The notes beneath the pieces are model-generated. The model was not told where the DNA came from and did no database searches. It saw nothing but the letters and a program-made list of their open reading frames with translations. From Parcubacteria group bacterium GW2011_GWA2_40_23 (GTDB lineage: Bacteria; Patescibacteriota; Patescibacteriia; UBA11705; JABHMO01), in NCBI GenBank assembly GCA_000996245.1, contig LBYP01000018.1, forward strand, positions 1 to 32,065: a DNA stretch of 32,065 nt, read 5' to 3'. A program made the position numbers and the translations under genes. Below, one piece after another: positions 2,118 to 26,478 of this stretch (position 1 is its first letter; every line of letters starts with the position of its first letter).

Positions 2118-3347
2118 TTACACCTTTAATGCCTTCTTGGACAATCGACGGCGCAGGAGTGTCATCGGTGCCACAGCATCTTTCATATCCAAATATACAA
2201 TCGTTTCCTGCCCGCCATGCGCTTCTTCCATTTTCTTATACTTTTTATCTTCTATATTCTTTATTCTATATTCAAAATTATTTCCACATGGAGGAATAAG
2301 CTCCAGTGTATCTCTAACCTTAAATTGATTATGAACCAAAACCTTTGCTTGACCATTTTTATAGTCGATGACCTCACCGCAAAATTCCCACGGACAATAA
2401 TCATGACTTTTATTAACTTCTTGTTCGACTTCTTCTTTACCAAATAAAAAGCCTTTGGTGTATCCACGATTTTGAGTTTTTTTGAGTTCCTCAATAAATG
2501 GTTTAAAATTTTTGATCGTTTTCTTTGCGTCGATAACCTCTCGATAAACTTTTACGGTATTAGCTAAATAATAAATGCTTTTAGCACGCCCCTCGATCTT
2601 AAATGACATGACGCCAGCCTTTTTTAATTGATCTAAATACTCAATAAGACATAAATCACGCGAATTCATAATATATGTTCCGCGATCATCTTCTTCGATT
2701 TCCAAAAGATCGTCGGGACGAGTAACCTCTCCAATAAAATGGCGGAACTGCCAACGGCAAGGTTGAGTGCAATCGCCAAGATTCGCACTTCTGTTGGTAT
2801 AATATTTCGAAAGCAAACATCTTCCAGAATATGACATGCACATAGCGCCATGAACAAAAACTTCGAGTTGAACTTTAGGAACTTTTTTATGAATTTCTTT
2901 AATTTCTTTTAAGGTAACTTCGCGTCCAAGAATAATTCGTTTGACGCCTTGTTCGTACCAAAATTTTGCTGCTTGCCAATTAGTACAATTCACTTGCGTG
3001 GAAAGATGTATCTCTATTTTAGGACAAATCTTTTGTGCGAGTTTAATTACTCCCGGATCAGAAACAATAAGCGCATCAGGTTTTAATGTTTTTAAAAGTT
3101 TAAGATGCTTTTCTAATTTTTCTAAATGTTTATTATGAGCAAAAATATTCGTGGTCACATAAACCTTCTTGCCGAGTTGATGCGCATAATCGATGCCGAC
3201 TTTAAGACTCTTTAAATCGAATTGATTAATACGGACTCGCAAAGAAAAATCTGGGATACCACAATAGACAGCATCAGCGCCAAACTCTAAGGCGTACTGT
3301 AATTTCTTTAAATTCCCGGCTGGAGCTAGTAATTCAGGCTTATTCAT
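2118..3347 (-). CDS. U32 family peptidase / tRNA-hydroxylation-type protein
   Basis: About 409 residues. The start at 3347 (MNKPELLAPAG) is the usual family N-terminus; an ATG 18 bases upstream adds MLNLVY and is less likely. The U32 signature EVFVHGAMCMSYSGRC is intact, and further cysteines (CTQPCRW, C in PWEFCG) fit the cluster-binding cysteines of the YegQ/TrhP/RlhA group. Those relatives act in prephenate-dependent tRNA or rRNA hydroxylation, while other U32 members are called collagenases; which applies here cannot be decided. It is followed directly by ruvA. A short AT-rich gap separates it from the divergent DHH-like gene. Confidence 0.9.
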   Translation of the reverse strand: MNKPELLAPAGNLKKLQYALEFGADAVYCGIPDFSLRVRINQFDLKSLKVGIDYAHQLGKKVYVTTNIFAHNKHLEKLEKHLKLLKTLKPDALIVSDPGVIKLAQKICPKIEIHLSTQVNCTNWQAAKFWYEQGVKRIILGREVTLKEIKEIHKKVPKVQLEVFVHGAMCMSYSGRCLLSKYYTNRSANLGDCTQPCRWQFRHFIGEVTRPDDLLEIEEDDRGTYIMNSRDLCLIEYLDQLKKAGVMSFKIEGRAKSIYYLANTVKVYREVIDAKKTIKNFKPFIEELKKTQNRGYTKGFLFGKEEVEQEVNKSHDYCPWEFCGEVIDYKNGQAKVLVHNQFKVRDTLELIPPCGNNFEYRIKNIEDKKYKKMEEAHGGQETIVYLDMKDAVAPMTLLRRRLSKKALKV

Positions 3348-7318: not shown

Positions 7319-7885
7319 TTAGAACTCGTAGGTGAACCGCGGACCGCGTCGAGTCCAACGTGACTTGATGATGCGAACTTGGATCTCGGTCTTGTAGATC
7401 ACCGCGAGGTCCTCAGCGATCCAGCGCCGACGATTCCAGCAGGCACGAAGCATTTCTTTGGCAATGCCAGGAATGTTACGCCAGTCGCGCGGCTTGCCAG
7501 TTCCTTTCCAGCCAGTCTTGGGCTTCCAAGAATACTTACCTTTCTCGAACCAGCGCTGAGCACGCGTCAGCCAGAACAGTGGGTATGCCCACCATACCGG
7601 CATGACGTAGAAGATGAGATCGTACGTGGAGAGGGGTCTCAACCCACTGTGTCCCTGTGGTGCATGGACATCTTCGATGATGGTCAGGCTGTCGCGACGA
7701 TCGAGGATCGTCGGCACATCGCGCGGGTCGAGCACGCTCCACGTATCACGCGCGTCGCGCACAGTCGTAAAAGCGTCAGCATCGTACTGAAAGAAAGGGA
7801 CTCCGAACTTACTGAGCGCAGAGACAAGCTTCCGACGAAGTGTACTCTTTCCGCAAATACCGATTCCCGTAATAAGCACGTTCAT
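7319..7885 (-). CDS. P-loop NTPase, small-molecule/nucleotide kinase-like
   Basis: 188 residues. A Walker A motif sits at the extreme N-terminus (MNVLITGIGICGKSTLRRKL, GxxxxGKST at about residues 7-15), as in adenylate, thymidylate and shikimate-kinase-like proteins. An acidic stretch SLTIIEDVHAPQGH (about residues 68-81) may act as Walker B. The C-terminal third is rich in Trp and Arg (KYSWKPKTGWKGTG, WNRRRWIAED), which is unusual. A GGAGG lies 7 bases before the ATG, and the gene is markedly GC-rich against the backbone. Substrate and pathway are unknown. Confidence 0.6.
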   Translation of the reverse strand: MNVLITGIGICGKSTLRRKLVSALSKFGVPFFQYDADAFTTVRDARDTWSVLDPRDVPTILDRRDSLTIIEDVHAPQGHSGLRPLSTYDLIFYVMPVWWAYPLFWLTRAQRWFEKGKYSWKPKTGWKGTGKPRDWRNIPGIAKEMLRACWNRRRWIAEDLAVIYKTEIQVRIIKSRWTRRGPRFTYEF

Positions 7886-7950
7886 TTTGTGCCTCCATGC
7901 ACGGTTTTGTTCGGACTGGTTAGCTTATATTAAAGTAAACAAATAATCAA

Positions 7951-7985
7951 CCCAGTACTATAAAGTGTGCCCTTTAAGTGCTGGG
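7951..7985. other. conserved-loop hairpin, copy 1
   Basis: CCCAGTACT (7951-7959) pairs with AGTGCTGGG (7977-7985); an inner AAAG-CTTT helix closes the loop. Read on the minus strand it aligns with the hairpin at 15228-15262: inner TAAAGGG-N-ACACTTTATA is conserved while the outer stem differs by paired changes. CTTGCCC precedes both. Confidence 0.7.
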
Positions 7986-8011
7986 CAAGTAAAACAAAAA
8001 AAAAAGTGCTC

Positions 8012-8185
8012 CATCCGATTTGCGAGCCCCGCAACGTTAAAGTGCTAATTCGGGACGTGGCAATCTCTTGATCAAATCCTTAGGAAACGAATTAGAGATT
8101 GCTTCCCTGCACCAGAAAGTGTTCCCTTTCGGTACGGGGTAAACGTCGTTAAATATTTTAGAAAAGCCTCCTCGCAAATCGGATG
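8012..8185. repeat. palindromic intergenic element, copy 2, with T-tail
   Basis: Perfect 15-bp inverted ends (CATCCGATTTGCGAG at 8012-8026, complement at 8171-8185) enclose the GCAATCTCT...AGAGATTGC hairpin (8060-8102) and a third AAAGTGT-N-CCCTTT hairpin (about 8113-8147). On the minus strand the closing stem is followed by GGAGCAC and ten T, so the whole element can act as a large terminator for the SanA-like gene that ends 8 bases upstream. Confidence 0.75.
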
Positions 8186-8193
8186 AAATTTAA

Positions 8194-8865
8194 TTACAAA
8201 TCTATCTTCTCTCCCAAAATAGGTTTTGGTTTTAGAATGTTAATGTCGAGCCAGGCTTTGAAGCTGGCCGGCCATTCTCTTAAAGAAAATTTCCATTTAT
8301 AAAAATACCCGCGATCAATGGCCGGCACACCCAAAGCAGATACGCCAAGTTCTTCGCAAAGGTATAAGGCCCGCGGCAAATGATAAGCTTGAGTTATTAA
8401 AACAATTTTATTTAAAGAAAAAATTTCTTTGACTCTATAACAACTGTCATAAGTTCGGCGACCAGCATAGTCAAGAATGATAACATCCTCTGGCAAACCT
8501 TCACCGATAGCAAAATCTTTCATGGCCTGCACTTCATTATAGTCGACGGTTGGATTAGCGCCACTCATTATAATCTTGCCAACCTTACCATCTTGATAAA
8601 GTTTTATGGCTGTCAAAACTCTATCCTCTAAAACATGACTAGGCCCACCTACCTTATTAAGCCCCGCACCAAAAACCAAAGCAATATTTGGACCTTCGAT
8701 CTTTTCGGATGTTATAATCTCATCTTTGAACTTGGACTGAACATGCCAACTAATAAATAAAAAAAACAGAACCAAGATTAGCCCTGACCAAAATAAAATC
8801 TTTATAAACCTAGACCAAGGTTTATGAACTTTTCGATAAGAACCTCTCTCGATCCCAATATCCAT
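8194..8865 (-). CDS. SanA/ElyC/YdcF-family (DUF218) membrane-anchored protein
   Basis: 223 residues. A positively charged N-terminus precedes one transmembrane helix (ILFWSGLILVLFFLFISW, about residues 24-41). The DUF218 domain follows: IALVFGAGLNKVGGPSHVLEDRVLTA, IIMSGANP, DYAGRRTYDSCYRVKEIF, and VLITQAYHLPRALYLCEELG. SanA and ElyC are inner-membrane proteins linked to envelope barrier function and peptidoglycan precursor metabolism in Enterobacteria; the chemistry is not settled. The start lies 7 bases after the upstream FAD gene, implying co-transcription. Family assignment is firm, the role here is inferred. Confidence 0.9.
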   Translation of the reverse strand: MDIGIERGSYRKVHKPWSRFIKILFWSGLILVLFFLFISWHVQSKFKDEIITSEKIEGPNIALVFGAGLNKVGGPSHVLEDRVLTAIKLYQDGKVGKIIMSGANPTVDYNEVQAMKDFAIGEGLPEDVIILDYAGRRTYDSCYRVKEIFSLNKIVLITQAYHLPRALYLCEELGVSALGVPAIDRGYFYKWKFSLREWPASFKAWLDINILKPKPILGEKIDL

Positions 8866-17811: not shown

Positions 17812-18960
17812 CTAGATCTTGACTTTGTACTGCGTGGCGAGCCGCTCGATGGTTTCTACGATCCGTACTTCGAGAGACTTCGGATGCTTTTGGGTCATGC
17901 GTTGCACCCAATCGAACTTGCATTCGCAGTTGAGCGAATCTGCCAGTGCGAGGATCTCCGCATGTTCGCTCGGTGCACAGGAAAAGCGCAGGATTTTTCT
18001 ACGCAAGGTCGCTTCACAACCCGAGCAAAACTGTGAGACTTTGATCGTCGGGTCGTCCGTGACGAAGCCGAAGAAATGAATGTCCCGACAACGTTCTGCA
18101 CCCAAGCGACGCATCAACGCCACCACAGACCAAGGACTCGGCAACTGGTAAAGACCTTCCTCGTACAGTTGCCCCACGAGTGTCCCCTTTTTCAGGTTCA
18201 TGCTCATGACGATCAGCGCATCCGCGAGACCGCTGTCTTGCAACTCCACCGCCGACTGGTACACATCTTCGAGAGTCTCAGCTTCGGTCAAGAGCGGAGC
18301 ACCGAGCTGGAGGTGAGCACAGACCTTCACATCGTAACAGTGCATGAGTTCGCACTTTTCACGCCAATCTGCTGGCAGGTGCTTATTGATGCAGCCTTCG
18401 CGCACCAACGGGTTCATGCTTTCGATGCCGAAGCCCATTTCGACCTTGACCGTCGACCCGAGGATTTGTCGGAGCTCGGACATGTTCGCGTCGGTGATGA
18501 ACTCCAAGCGACTTTCGGTGGCCATCTCCACGATCTCGTACCGAGGGACAGCTGCCGCGATCCGCGACAGGATGTAGCGCCGTACGTCGGCCGGAACTTC
18601 GCTCGTGTCAAAGAAAGAACCGATGCCGTTGACGTTGAACAGGATGTACTTTCCCTGATCGCACTGCACAGACTCGATGTGATCGCACATTTCCTTGGCC
18701 GCCTGCATCAACTCCCAGTCTTCCGGCTTTTGCGGACGGCAGGTGTAGTCGCACATCGTGCAACCACCGGCCCAAGCATGCCGACAGCCCCTGGAGTTCA
18801 AGAACGAAAGCGGAGCGACACGACCGGGGAGCGCGGAAATGGGGAGATTGAAACAGCCCCAGTTCCCTTCGCTGATGCGACGACCGCGCTCTTCGCGCAA
18901 CTTGCGCATGATCGGATTCCAGTTTTTGCGCGCGAACTCGAGAACGTTCTGCTTTTCCAT
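17812..18960 (-). CDS. radical SAM protein, archaeosine-synthase-partner (COG1244/RaSEA)-like
   Basis: 382 residues. The cluster cysteines are in SRGCRHAWAGGCTMCDY (C59, C67, C70), the spaced CX7CX2C arrangement of Elp3-like and RaSEA-type enzymes rather than CX3CX2C. KVEMGFGIESMNPLVREGCINK matches the GxExxxxxvR-type SAM contact. A C-terminal cluster of cysteines (SQFCSGCEATLRRKILRFSC) may bind a second metal. RaSEA works on the archaeosine base of archaeal tRNA; bacterial homologues are uncharacterised. It has a GGAGG five bases from the ATG and is markedly GC-rich. The membrane protein gene upstream (19076-19600) is 115 bases away on the same strand; two hairpins lie between. Confidence 0.7.
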   Translation of the reverse strand: MEKQNVLEFARKNWNPIMRKLREERGRRISEGNWGCFNLPISALPGRVAPLSFLNSRGCRHAWAGGCTMCDYTCRPQKPEDWELMQAAKEMCDHIESVQCDQGKYILFNVNGIGSFFDTSEVPADVRRYILSRIAAAVPRYEIVEMATESRLEFITDANMSELRQILGSTVKVEMGFGIESMNPLVREGCINKHLPADWREKCELMHCYDVKVCAHLQLGAPLLTEAETLEDVYQSAVELQDSGLADALIVMSMNLKKGTLVGQLYEEGLYQLPSPWSVVALMRRLGAERCRDIHFFGFVTDDPTIKVSQFCSGCEATLRRKILRFSCAPSEHAEILALADSLNCECKFDWVQRMTQKHPKSLEVRIVETIERLATQYKVKI

Positions 18961-22524: not shown

Positions 22525-22606
22525 ACGCGTAGGGTCAAATAATTATTAGACCCTACGCCGACGTATTATTATGTAAATTTTATCATAATGACTTTAAATT
22601 ACAACG
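22525..22606. repeat. 82-bp direct repeat, copy A (includes RT 3' end)
   Basis: About 93% identical to 25425-25506 (offset 2900). It holds the last seven codons and stop of the RT and an AT-rich tail ending in a GCGTAGGGTC...GACCCTACGC hairpin. Confidence 0.9.
22526..22558. terminator. hairpin between the RT and EndoQ-like genes
   Basis: GCGTAGGGTC and GACCCTACGC pair perfectly around an AT loop. The T-run is poor, so terminator function is likely but unproven. In the other copy of the repeat the stem has decayed. Confidence 0.6.
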
Positions 22607-23620
22607 ATTATTTATTATTTTACTCATCGACCCTCTTATATTTAAGCTACAACAATACTTTAACATTCCAGAATACGAACTAAGCGTTTGCTTAAAAGAA
22701 TTATATGAGATGCCCCTTTGCGCATATTCGATTGTTTTACCTAAAACACAACTTAACATCCTTTTCTTTGTTTTCGTTCTGAGTAAAGTGAAATATGGAA
22801 AAACAACATATCCCAAAAAATCAACTCCTTGCCCTACTTTTCTGATCGAAACTTTCTGCGGATGTAAATTTAACTTTAATTGATGTTGCAAAGTTGTGCT
22901 GATTCCGGGCACTAACTGTTCTAAGTATTTTCTACTGTTGTGAACAAAGACAAAATCGTCAGTATAACGAATATAATTTTTAATTTTCAGATTTTTCTGT
23001 GCATACTGATCGAATTCATTCATGTATATATTTGCAAACAGTTGAGAGGTCAAATTACCTAAGGGGATCCCCTTGCCTTCAACACAATTAAAACTATAAA
23101 CAATTTTCTAAATCAGATCCATAGCTTTATCATCAGTAATCTTCTTTTGAATCAAGCTCAATAAGATTTGATGATCAATAGAATGAAAAAACTTTTTAAT
23201 GTCGCATTTTAAAACAAAACAATTTTGTTGATAATTTCTGCTAACTTTTTGTATATACGAACCCAATTGCTTAACGGCTTTATGTGTTCCTTTATTTATT
23301 CGGCAGGAATATGAATCATTGATGAACATTTCATCAAATATCGGATACAAAACGCGAAAAATGGCGTGATGTAAAACTCTATCGACGACTGGAGCCTTGT
23401 GAATTATCCTTGGTTTTGGATCTTTTACACAAAAACTGACATAATTACCATGTTGATACCTGCCGGTCTTCAATAACCAGTGTAGTTTGAATATATTGTC
23501 CTCTAAATTGAATTCAAATGTTTGAACATCTAACTTGTGACGCTTCCCCTTTCTAAACTCCGACCAAGCTGAAAACAAATTATCAAGACTAATTATTTTA
23601 TCAAATACATTATGGATCAT
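22583..23620 (-). pseudogene. DGR reverse transcriptase with one in-frame TAG
   Basis: One continuous frame of about 345 codons except for a TAG at 23108-23110. The 5' part has NLEDNIFKLHWLLKTGRYQHG-like RT block, PVVDRVLHHAIFRVLYPIF, the catalytic aspartate block LKCDIKKFFHSIDHQ. Eighteen sense codons after the TAG begin the motif GIPLGNLTSQLFANIY, whose LGxxxSQ form is characteristic of DGR RTs (group II introns have QGxxxSP). YIRYTDDFVF is the YxDD active site. So all catalytic residues are intact; only the stop interrupts. A second start (TTG at 23053) would lack the first catalytic aspartate. Either a recent nonsense mutation, readthrough, or a sequence error. Start overlaps avd. Confidence 0.9.
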
Positions 23621-23962
23621 AATTCCATTTCGTTAATTCCAAAGGCCTACGAGCTGCACAAAAATTTGTATCAAGTTCTCAAAACTTTTCCCAAAGGCGA
23701 CAAATACAATTTAGGCAATGAGATAAAACTAAATTCCATCAATTTACTAGAATTATTTTTAGAGGCTGAATCAACACCCAAAGAGTGGAAAATGCCCCTT
23801 TTAAATAAAGCGAACGTCAAACTTTCGATGTTAAAACTATTTATCAGGCTGGCAAACGACCTCGGTATAATAGACCAAAAGACAATGATTAACATTCAAG
23901 AACAACTGCAAGAGGTGGGTCGCATGCTTGGTGGTTGGATAAAATTTCTCACAAAAACATAA
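23612..23962 (+). CDS. avd: DGR accessory variability determinant Avd-like protein
   Basis: 116 residues, normal for Avd. Sequence blocks IPKAYELHKNLYQVLKTFPK, KYNLGNEIKLNSINLLELFL, KANVKLSMLKLFIRLANDLG and LQEVGRMLGGWIKFL give four helices and the basic face expected for the pentameric barrel that binds RT and TR RNA in studied DGRs. It is essential for homing in the Bordetella phage model. Here it is divergent from the RT: its ATG (23612-23614) and the RT start (23618-23620) lie within nine bases, so the promoters and ribosome sites of each must lie inside the other gene. AT-rich like the RT. Confidence 0.88.
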   Translation: MDHNSISLIPKAYELHKNLYQVLKTFPKGDKYNLGNEIKLNSINLLELFLEAESTPKEWKMPLLNKANVKLSMLKLFIRLANDLGIIDQKTMINIQEQLQEVGRMLGGWIKFLTKT

Positions 23963-23964
23963 AA

Positions 23965-23998
23965 GTCCTGAGGTTTATTTCAGAACTTCTATTTTTAC
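23965..23998. terminator. hairpin between avd and the TR
   Basis: AAGTCCTGA pairs with TCAGAACTT with one mismatch; T-rich stretches lie on both sides. It can end both avd (plus) and the TR RNA (minus). Confidence 0.5.
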
Positions 23999-24002
23999 TA
24001 TA

Positions 24003-24131
24003 GACATTTCGGGAGGAAGCCAGAGACCGAACCCCACTGCTTGTTCTGATTGTCGATTCCGTTGTAGTTCAGTTCGAGTTGCTGGTTGATTCTGTTCCAG
24101 TTGAAGTTGAGGCAGAGCGAGAACGAACCTT
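24003..24131 (-). repeat. DGR template repeat (TR)
   Basis: 129 bases aligned without gaps to VR1 (25605-25733). All 17 differences are at T on the plus strand, i.e. at sense-strand adenines, though only 37 of 129 positions are such. In the target frame it would read LNFNWNRINQQLELNYNGID..., with AAC/AAT codons at most variable sites. Confidence 0.97.
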
Positions 24132-24352
24132 ATCCAAAAACATTGCCATATTTCGTCCAAAGCATACCAACAAGATTGGTATGGGTTCCTCTGTGGAATT
24201 AATATGCGATAGACACCCAAAAACGCAGGGCTCTACACTAAAACATGGCAAGCAATGTCTATATTGTAAGAATACTCTTGGAGATTATTATCAAAACTCC
24301 AACGCTGATTTTTACAATCAGAGATTTCGGTGACTAATGTTTTAATATTAGT

Positions 24353-25264
24353 TCAATAACCTACTTTCAAAATCATTATAGCAAATGATAAAAATTTTGT
24401 ATGTAAAAAAATAGAATCGGCCCGCCTCTCATGAGCCCGATCGTCGAGGCCGCTGCAGCTCAGTGCGAGTAGCCGGTAGATGCCGAACCAGTAGAAGCTG
24501 CGGCAGAGCGAGAACACGGCTTTAGGATCATCGCGGTATTCGACCCCAGAGCAGTCGATGTACAACTGGTCATTGCCAGTAATGCGATCCGGATGGGTCA
24601 GCAACAGTATGCCTGTCTCGAATGGTCCAAGACCGAATTCTTCCTGCAAGTAACGCACACGACCGTGACGGATCGACGCACCTGCCCAGCGTTTGCCGAA
24701 CTGAGCATCGAACACGAGGAAGTCTCCAGGTTGACTGGACGCGAGCTGTTGGTAGGCCTGCGCGGTCTTTTCGACCAACCGCATGTGCTCGTCCGTCAAC
24801 TTCTCACCGCGATAGTTGTTGAACTTGTCGCCGTGCAATTTCTTGAGCAACGCGACCACGATCATCAACGCTTCGCCATAGGTATTGGCAATGGCTTGCC
24901 ACTTGGGAATCACGGGGGTGAACTCAGCTTGCGGATGCCTCTTCCCCTTGGCCTGCACCAGACGCTTGACGTGACTGGCGTCCAAACCAGGAAACAACTT
25001 CAACAATTCTCGCGTCTGAGTCCGTGGTGTCCGAAAACGAAAACCATTCTGATAACCGTACATACTTGAGACTCTTTCATCCGCATACGGCAATACAATA
25101 GCGCTTTGAGTCGAACGGCCCTGATCATGAAGGAAATCGTGCAGAAAAGAAACCACGGCACCTTTTTCCCCTTCTGCCCCATTACTGAGACGTTTAATCA
25201 GACGCTCGATCAAAGCAACTTCTCCATCGTTTAAAGAACCTACGTCCACGCTTCGCTGACTCAT
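24353..25264 (-). CDS. DGR target protein 2, with truncated VR
   Basis: About 303 residues from MSQRSVDVGSLNDG; the ATG at 25264 has GGAGG five bases before it, whereas an ATG at 25276 would overlap that site. It is a paralogue of target 1 along the full length (shared YADERV, YGYxxGFRFRTPR, KAKGKRHPQAEFTPV-like, KWQ-IA-TYGEALMIVVALLKKLHGDKF, LVFDAQFGKRWAGASIRHGR, EFGLGP, LLLTHPDRITG). The C-terminal variable domain is of the C-type-lectin-like kind expected for DGR targets. VR2 occupies 24435-24515; after it the sequence jumps into the right half of a terminator like that of target 1, so the last 25 or so residues are encoded by non-VR DNA. GC-rich, with its own promoter. Confidence 0.85.
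   Translation of the reverse strand: MSQRSVDVGSLNDGEVALIERLIKRLSNGAEGEKGAVVSFLHDFLHDQGRSTQSAIVLPYADERVSSMYGYQNGFRFRTPRTQTRELLKLFPGLDASHVKRLVQAKGKRHPQAEFTPVIPKWQAIANTYGEALMIVVALLKKLHGDKFNNYRGEKLTDEHMRLVEKTAQAYQQLASSQPGDFLVFDAQFGKRWAGASIRHGRVRYLQEEFGLGPFETGILLLTHPDRITGNDQLYIDCSGVEYRDDPKAVFSLCRSFYWFGIYRLLALSCSGLDDRAHERRADSIFLHTKFLSFAIMILKVGY
24435..24515 (-). repeat. DGR variable repeat 2 (VR2), truncated
   Basis: 81 bases aligned to TR 24044-24124: 20 differences, 19 at sense adenines and one A-to-C on the plus strand (TR 24110). The TR part 24003-24043, which corresponds to the 3' end of the VR, is missing. Confidence 0.9.
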
Positions 25265-25276
25265 ATCAGCCTCCAT

Positions 25277-25424
25277 AGCTCCGACGATTTACTCCGCCGT
25301 TAAGCCCTGCCCTTAACTCAAGGACAGAAAAATTAAGATAACTTATTACCTTAACTTTTCTATACTCGGACATTAGATATTAGCTAAAATTATTGTTCAT
25401 GTCAATGGCGACTACTTTCACCAT
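25277..25424. promoter_or_regulatory. leader and promoter of target 2
   Basis: Minus-strand TTGACA (25400-25405), 17-base spacer, TAATAT (25377-25382) gives a leader of about 105 bases before the ATG at 25264. A CCTG...CAGG-type hairpin could form in it. Nothing else is recognised here. Confidence 0.8.
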
Positions 25425-25506
25425 TAGCGTAATGTCAAATAATTATTGGATCCTACGCCGACGTATTATTATGTAAATCTTATCATAATGACTTTAAATT
25501 ACAACG
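25425..25506. repeat. 82-bp direct repeat, copy B (RT 3'-end remnant)
   Basis: Carries the last codons of an RT gene (RCNLKSL then TGA on the minus strand) and downstream tail, directly joined to the terminator of target 1. Its hairpin arms have lost pairing relative to copy A. Confidence 0.9.
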
Positions 25507-25509
25507 CTA

Positions 25510-25549
25510 TAAAAATAGAACCGGCCCGCCTCTGGTGAGAGGCGGGCCG
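25510..25549 (-). terminator. terminator of target 1
   Basis: CGGCCCGCCTCT and AGAGGCGGGCCG form a perfect 12-bp stem around GGTG, followed on the minus strand by a T-rich run. A GGGGAC-TAG-GTCCCC hairpin (25562-25576) precedes it. Confidence 0.9.
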
Positions 25550-25584
25550 ATAAGGAACAAGGGGGACTAGGTCCCCAAGAAAGT

Positions 25585-26478
25585 TCAAGCAGACAAGGGT
25601 CGAGGACATTGCGGGAGGAAGCCAGAGACCGAACCCCACTGCCGGTTCTGAGGGCCGATCCCGTGGTAGCGCAGTACGAGTTGCTGGTTGATACCGCTCC
25701 AGAAGAAGTAGAGGCAGAGCGAGAACGAACCTTTAGGATCATCTCGGTACTCGCACCCAGCGCAGTCGATGTACAACTGGTCAATGCCAGTAATGCGATC
25801 CGGATGCGTCAAGAGCAGAATGCCGACCTCGTATGGTCCGAGACCGAACTCTTCCTCCAAATACCGCACACGACCATGGCGGATCGATGCACCTGCCCAG
25901 CGCTTGCCGAACTGGGCATCGAAGACGAGGAAATCTCCAGGTTGGCTGGCACCGAGCTGTTGGTAGGCCAGCGTGGTCTTTTCGATGAGCTGGACATGCG
26001 CATCCGTCAGCTTTTCACCGCGATAGTTGTTGAACTTGTCGCCGTGCAACTTCTTGAGCAAGGCGACCACGATCATCAACGCTTCGCCATAGGTCTTGGC
26101 AATGGATTGCCACTTAGGAACCACGGGCGTGAACTCAGCTTGCGGATGCCTCTTTCCCTTGGCCTTGACCAAGCTTTTGACATGACTGGCGTCCAGCTGA
26201 GGGAATAGTTCCCGCAGACTCTGGACTTGCGCACGTGGCGTGCGGAAACGGAATCCCGAAGGATAGCCGAAACTGCTTGCAACTCGTTCGTCCGCATACG
26301 GCAGTATTGCCGAGATCTGCACGAGGTCGAACGGATTACGATGCTCGAGAAATGCTCGAAGTTGGTTTTCCGTCAAACCTTTCAACGGATCCTTGGCTCC
26401 TGCCTTGAGCTGTTTCATCAGCTCTTCCAGCAACCCGAACGGCGTGCCGTCCGAATCACCGACAACCACGGTATTCAT
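25585..26478 (-). CDS. DGR target protein 1, with complete VR
   Basis: 297 residues, ATG with GGAGG 7 bases upstream. Same architecture as target 2: N-terminal 90 residues specific, shared middle domain (FGYPSGFRFRTPR, KAKGKRHPQAEFTPVVPKW, TYGEALMIVVALLKKLHGDK, LVFDAQFGKRWAGAS) and a C-terminal variable domain beginning near CAGCEYRDDPKGSFSLC. VR1 covers about residues 249-291, ending QWGSVSGFLPQC, a C-type-lectin-like fold end. Compared with the TR translation, Asn codons became Tyr, Phe, Ser, Arg, His and Pro. No signal peptide or membrane helix is seen, so location is unclear. It lies 28 bases downstream of yvcK on the same strand. Confidence 0.9.
   Translation of the reverse strand: MNTVVVGDSDGTPFGLLEELMKQLKAGAKDPLKGLTENQLRAFLEHRNPFDLVQISAILPYADERVASSFGYPSGFRFRTPRAQVQSLRELFPQLDASHVKSLVKAKGKRHPQAEFTPVVPKWQSIAKTYGEALMIVVALLKKLHGDKFNNYRGEKLTDAHVQLIEKTTLAYQQLGASQPGDFLVFDAQFGKRWAGASIRHGRVRYLEEEFGLGPYEVGILLLTHPDRITGIDQLYIDCAGCEYRDDPKGSFSLCLYFFWSGINQQLVLRYHGIGPQNRQWGSVSGFLPQCPRPLSA
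25605..25733 (-). repeat. DGR variable repeat 1 (VR1)
   Basis: 129-base gap-free match to the TR (offset 1602). The invariant 3' part (25605-25642 on the plus strand) has one difference and is the likely initiation-of-homing region; variation concentrates at 25643-25710. Confidence 0.97.

Follow-up and report, generated by a model that had tools for sequence, protein, structure and literature searches.

Detailed molecular knowledge of how diversity-generating retroelements (DGRs) work comes mainly from a single phage system. In the BPP-1 DGR, the folded part of the template RNA, which recruits the reverse transcriptase (RT) and Avd and primes cDNA synthesis, is located 3' of the template repeat (TR), while a signal stopping reverse transcription lies in avd, 5' of TR (PMC12875486; PMC8867640). 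The TR of BPP-1 (AY029185, positions 2887-3020) adjoins avd and is located 144 nt from the RT gene brt. In retrons (msr-msd), a folded RNA is found 5' of the reverse-transcribed template (PMC8867640).

The DNA analysed here, referred to as the window, is a stretch of 32,065 nt representing contig C18 of Parcubacteria group bacterium GW2011_GWA2_40_23, whose 1.22 Mb genome is available as a fragmented assembly of 37 contigs. Patescibacteria are ultra-small bacteria, and the locus is confirmed as a real DGR of a Patescibacteria/CPR genome, present as a decayed copy. Like the BPP-1 DGR (mtd/avd/TR/brt), it comprises an RT, an Avd and a TR/VR pair with adenine-specific changes, with the variable repeat (VR) at the 3' end of the target gene and hairpins downstream of VR.

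Gene content, repeats and decay of the locus

The original prediction placed an RT, an Avd, a TR and two paralogous targets together in this region. All of them are present, but the cassette is not intact: a stop codon interrupts the RT frame, the second variable repeat (VR2) is truncated, avd is antisense, and a folded RNA lies 5' of TR. The genes and repeats are as follows:

22527..22606, minus strand: 80-bp repeat, copy 1, comprising the last 8 RT codons and the downstream palindrome
22583..23620, minus strand: DGR reverse transcriptase gene, 345 codons, with an in-frame TAG at codon 171 (23108-23110)
23612..23962, plus strand: avd (accessory variability determinant), antisense to TR and RT and overlapping the 5' end of the RT gene
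24003..24131, minus strand: TR, 129 nt with 37 adenines
24353..25276, minus strand: target gene T2 with the VR2 remnant (about 24437-24522), its frame running into the putative promoter of the TR RNA
25427..25506, minus strand: 80-bp repeat, copy 2, a remnant of the RT end after T1, 94% identical to copy 1
25522..25576, minus strand: two hairpins 3' of VR1, read from the sequence (25561-25576, GGGGAC-CTA-GTCCCC; 25522-25549, terminator)
25585..26478, minus strand: target gene T1, 297 aa, intact
25605..25733, minus strand: VR1, at the 3' end of T1, defined by its alignment with TR

The gap-free alignment of TR with VR1, both on the minus strand, spans 129 nt. The 17 mismatches all fall on the 37 TR adenines (hypergeometric p = 2.2e-11), with no non-adenine mismatch over the 129 nt, and VR1 carries T, G and C in place of A. 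Twelve codons are altered and the residue is replaced in 11 of them. Recomputation thus bears out the original prediction, which had placed all 17 substitutions on adenines, noted A-to-C, A-to-G and A-to-T changes and at least eleven changed codons, and put the chance of such a pattern at one in a billion; the computed value is stronger still. The hallmark of DGR mutagenesis is therefore real, and chance or ordinary paralogy is ruled out as the source of the pattern (p = 2e-11). An unbiased scan of the region recovers both the TR/VR1 and the TR/VR2 pairs, the latter matching over 79 nt (24437-24515) with 17 mismatches at adenines and one other.

VR2 retains only the 5' two thirds of the repeat. 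Where its match to TR ends, the sequence continues as one arm of a terminator hairpin, which indicates that the 3' part of VR and the T2 stop codon were deleted; fused to this arm without a stop of its own, the T2 frame therefore enters the promoter region of the TR RNA. The 80-bp repeat includes a near-perfect 32-bp palindrome (GCGTAGGGTCAAATAATTATTAGACCCTACGC), located after the RT at 22527-22558 and repeated at 25427-25458, and no further copy of this repeat was found in the rest of the genome. Since copy 2 holds the RT C-terminus, the simplest history would be a tandem duplication of the target-TR-avd-RT unit followed by deletions, in which the upstream unit may have lost TR, avd and RT, and the downstream unit the 3' end of its VR. 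An empty-site comparison in four genomes of the same family revealed no clean synteny.

The RT frame matches Pfam RVT_1 (6.9e-24), carries the DGR-type motif IPLGNLTSQ (of the [IVL]GxxxSQ type) in addition to YTDD, and has 8ub7_A as its best PDB relative (E 3e-43). The TAG codon is located after catalytic motif A (KCDIKKFFHSID) and before motif C (YTDD). Reassignment of this codon is ruled out, because TAG terminates 7 of the 25 genes of the window. RT frames are also interrupted by stops in several other CPR loci (e.g., G254, G290, and G138), so that RT decay is common. The product of avd was identified by matches to Pfam bAvd (2e-20), NCBIfam NF033474 (86.9 bits, cut-off 80) and the PHROG Avd profile (1.3e-25). 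Elsewhere in the window, a radical SAM protein (17812-18960) resembles, in a bacterium, the archaeosine enzyme RaSEA (TIGR01210, 150 bits, below the cut-off).

Members of the T1 family occur in 44 of the 381 genomes of the class, and the closest named relative of the target is found in Candidatus Buchananbacteria. An AlphaFold model of T1 reached a pLDDT of 86 with 25 sequences, compared with 45 with 6 sequences, and contains three long strands over VR. Modelling of the target for a C-type-lectin fold, suggested along with the original prediction, thus yielded a confident structure, but its best matches are weak: 2y3c TvpA, 5aoh CarF and 5hha PvdO recur at E 4-6, and no match with E below 0.001 was found among PDB and viral structures. 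The two hairpins 3' of VR1 are candidates for a target-recognition stem-loop. A third target paralogue, T3, is split between the ends of two other contigs of the genome (C20, L008 1-662; C24, L009 6085-6449) and has a similar hairpin pair. Its junction contains inverted terminal repeats (TACCGTTTAATTTTGGGTGC) and a 9-nt repeat, GAAAAGCTG, as expected for an IS insertion, and T3 was probably split by such an IS-like element.

The predicted TR RNA and its 5' domain

The region between T2 and avd contains the following elements, all on the minus strand:

23953..23988, minus strand: intrinsic-terminator-like hairpin closing the predicted TR RNA, about 15 nt after TR
24142..24260, minus strand: conserved three-way-junction RNA domain (match to covariance model R1, covariation of helix P1, folding z -2.75)
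24329..24361, minus strand: hairpin P0 at the 5' end of the predicted TR RNA, GGU-UAUUGA-stem-C-ACC with an asymmetric 6/1 internal loop
24375..24380, minus strand: TATAAT, an extended -10-like box (TTGCTATAAT), promoter-like sequence for the TR RNA

From this arrangement, TR is predicted to be made as a separate small RNA with its own promoter, consisting of P0, the three-way junction, TR and the terminator; in the window the transcript would extend from about 24365 to 23953. The distance from TR to the avd open frame is 43 nt.

The conservation of this organization was analysed in 43 related loci, comprising the window, L018, L049 and 40 others located around the best class-level RT matches. 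The alignment of TR with VR proposed with the original prediction was thereby extended to relatives: in 38 of the 43, an unbiased scan recovered a TR/VR pair with an adenine bias. Avd was detected in 41 of these 43 CPR loci, and in 41/41 it is antisense and located between TR and RT, whereas in the viral comparison loci, mostly of BPP-1 type, it is sense in 68/68 and as a rule lies directly 5' of TR. All RTs associated with antisense avd form one clade in the RT tree (support 0.84). The closest relative, L018 from Ca. Buchananbacteria CSMAG_470, has 18 of 18 TR/VR mismatches on adenines and shares with the window the target family (50% identity), antisense avd, TR, 5' RNA and the order of these elements relative to RT; unlike the window, it has an intact RT and a single target. 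Four viral contigs from IMG/VR (L214-L217), with RTs close to that of the window, are the only viral ones with antisense avd; they carry CPR-type DGRs and possibly belong to viruses of Patescibacteria.

The window form of P0 is also found in most related loci. Its general form comprises GGY, a six-nt bulge near UAAUGC, a stem, one pyrimidine and RCC, preceded by a TATAAT-like box. The joint P0 and TATAAT-like motif score is reached by 18 of 38 loci and by 0.4% of shuffles; the pairing within P0 was itself selected by the motif search and therefore carries no independent statistical weight. Beyond TR, a terminator-like hairpin follows at 2-28 nt in 38/38 loci, with a U-tract on the TR-sense side in 30/38 and on the other side alone in 0/38. 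Ten of the 38 terminators are bidirectional, as expected from their location between convergent genes.

The three-way-junction domain is closed by helix P1, formed in the window by 24240-24251 with 24143-24154. The 3' arm of P1 lies 11 nt from TR; its distance to TR homology is 0-7 nt in most loci and up to 20 nt in one locus pair. An alignment of 20 loci (A2) supports the three-way junction, with 19 of 21 pairs changed on both sides and 96.0% paired cells, compared with 61.6% in shuffled and 40-50% in slid controls. In alignment A3 (13 loci, including the window), the proportion of paired cells for P1 is 97.4%, versus 74.5%, and a refined set of 37 loci has 95.2% paired cells versus 60.5%; alignments of the A2/A3 type were trimmed at helix ends, which favours P1. 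Taken alone, locus by locus, P1 is only about 2 sd above shuffles. Since single-locus folding of P1 is thus not significant per locus, the case for this helix rests on position, covariation and model matches in loci outside the training set.

A covariance model built from A2 (R1) was searched over 50 loci totalling 563 kb and gave 38 matches at E up to 1, all beside TR or in the equivalent place, with none elsewhere in the 563 kb. Eighteen of the matches are in loci outside training (one of which, L066, is nearly identical to a training locus). The window copy, likewise outside training, was matched with a weak score (27.1 bits, E 0.0033). R1 matches are absent in 5 of the 43 DGR loci, L049 among them. 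The refined model (R2) has matches in 125 of 381 genomes of the class, about a third, and the refined model also matches 42 of 192 genomes across the phylum; the window copy was not recovered by R2 under the stricter filters used for whole genomes. Among the 150 R2 class matches listed, at least 87 are followed after 510-627 nt by an RT encoded on the same strand. A further 20 R2 matches were inspected: an RT lies downstream of 10 of them, and an Avd or a TR accompanies most of the remainder. Among 83 viral DGR loci, model matches with E below 0.01 are confined to those with antisense-clade RTs (L214, L216, and L217). Strong matches to the 5' RNA model also occur at L121 2557-2655 and L131 2455-2551, with no recognisable TR behind them. 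A search of Rfam with the 5' domain found no family at or above its gathering score, and none of the known families thus provides its identity. The template-RNA architecture appears to be a variant common to a whole clade of DGRs, with a 5' domain previously uncatalogued in Rfam.

Proposed mechanism, activity and alternative explanations

The TR/VR signature, the gene content with its antisense avd, the terminator and the conserved, covarying RNA 5' of TR, all of them observed, are best accommodated by a DGR of a Patescibacteria-centred RT clade that rewrites the C-terminus of T1, using a TR RNA whose 5' domain would serve as the scaffold for RT and Avd; we hold this to be very probable. According to this scheme, a short RNA containing TR would be produced from a dedicated promoter, RT with Avd would copy TR into cDNA with errors at adenines, and the mutated cDNA would replace VR1 (mutagenic retrohoming), altering the T1 C-terminus. 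The 5' domain most likely binds RT-Avd, and P1, because it ends beside the TR boundary, probably marks the stop of reverse transcription. The lack of room for a 3' spacer and the conserved fold at the 5' border of TR suggest that the 5' domain takes over the function of the stop signal at least, and probably that of the RT-Avd binding site too. Priming of cDNA could occur either in the 5' domain, in a retron-like manner, or near the 3' hairpin. A fully reversed layout, with both RT-Avd binding and cDNA priming assigned to a domain 5' of TR and a cDNA start unlike that of BPP-1, is a tentative proposal and rather doubtful. The target protein itself may also have a role in recognition.

Two other explanations of the RNA elements were considered. 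The TR RNA could read through the terminator, so that the antisense-avd region acts as a 3' spacer as in BPP-1 and the 5' structure is secondary. The canonical system does depend on a spacer located 3' of TR and containing an internal adenine for priming (PMC12875486), and some of the terminators are bidirectional, but the presence of the hairpin shortly after TR in every one of the 38 loci, mostly with the U-tract on the TR-sense side, and the fact that loci of BPP-1 type all lack the 5' domain and retain a sense avd next to TR, make read-through highly improbable. The 5' element could instead regulate the stability or transcription of the TR RNA, or act at the DNA level, without being an RT scaffold. 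The evidence for the element consists of location and covariation, which such a regulator would also fit; nevertheless, it tracks one RT clade, lies 0-20 nt from TR in nearly all loci and marks TRs even in cassettes without a nearby RT, so that a purely regulatory role appears distinctly unlikely.

As for the scaffold scheme in the window, where the local RT is broken, it follows that rewriting either ceased only recently or now depends on a different DGR RT of this genome, acting in trans. Three further DGR-type RTs are encoded there (one on C4 and two on C15), with stop-free frames 50-53% identical to the window RT. The first belongs to a second DGR (C4, L049 7237-9720) with antisense avd, a VR at 7882-8008 and a TR at 8163-8289 that differ by 28 mismatches at adenines and one other; the R1 model of the 5' RNA gave no match in this locus. 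No TR/VR was detected near the two RTs on C15 (L050 2063-2950 and L051 7959-9200); a short lectin-like target remnant adjoins the RT of L051. Four other CPR cassettes (L120, L133, L135, and L136) contain target, VR, 5' RNA and TR with a partly decayed adenine bias and no RT or Avd nearby, and can be read as RT-less or trans-served DGRs. Their TR/VR pairs have 6-29 non-adenine mismatches each, versus none in VR1. The absence of such changes in VR1 implies that its diversification is recent or supplied in trans, for which another DGR RT of the same genome may be responsible.

That the RT stop ended activity, leaving VR1 as the frozen last state of a dead DGR, has only slightly less than an even chance. 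The TAG codon, the truncated VR2 and the IS-split T3 agree with such a loss, while the clean VR1, compared with the RT-less cassettes, and the stop-free RTs elsewhere in the genome speak against it; the same comparison indicates that any death must have been recent. The TAG might also be an assembly error or a minority variant, with RT intact in most cells, as a lone stop within an otherwise well conserved frame of a fragmented assembly could suggest; given the stops in RT frames of several other CPR loci, this is unlikely.

Comparison with known systems

A large cellular clade of DGRs thus appears to lack the 3' spacer and instead to have a conserved fold 5' of the template. In that case, cDNA priming and recognition of the template would have evolved in at least two ways, the RNA model would be a sensitive TR detector capable of finding cassettes with a missing RT, and the combination of RT and Avd with a short, separable RNA would be attractive for reconstitution and directed evolution.

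The CPR DGRs of clade 2 in Roux et al. 2021 (PMC8144416) share with the window the host group, cellular location and a target without a recognised domain; the passages of that paper covered here mention neither antisense avd nor a 5' RNA domain, and an earlier description may exist elsewhere. The likeness to retrons is an analogy of layout only, since the RT of the window is of DGR type and is accompanied by TR/VR and Avd; retrons have an msr-type priming guanosine, none being shown for the window. The structured spacer of about 100-150 nt found 3' of TR in the BPP-1 type is absent from the layout of the window and its relatives. In BPP-1, the sense-oriented avd is adjacent to TR, and a folded spacer of about 144 nt separates TR from brt. 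In the window, by contrast, avd is antisense, the folded domain precedes TR on its 5' side, and TR is immediately followed by a terminator.
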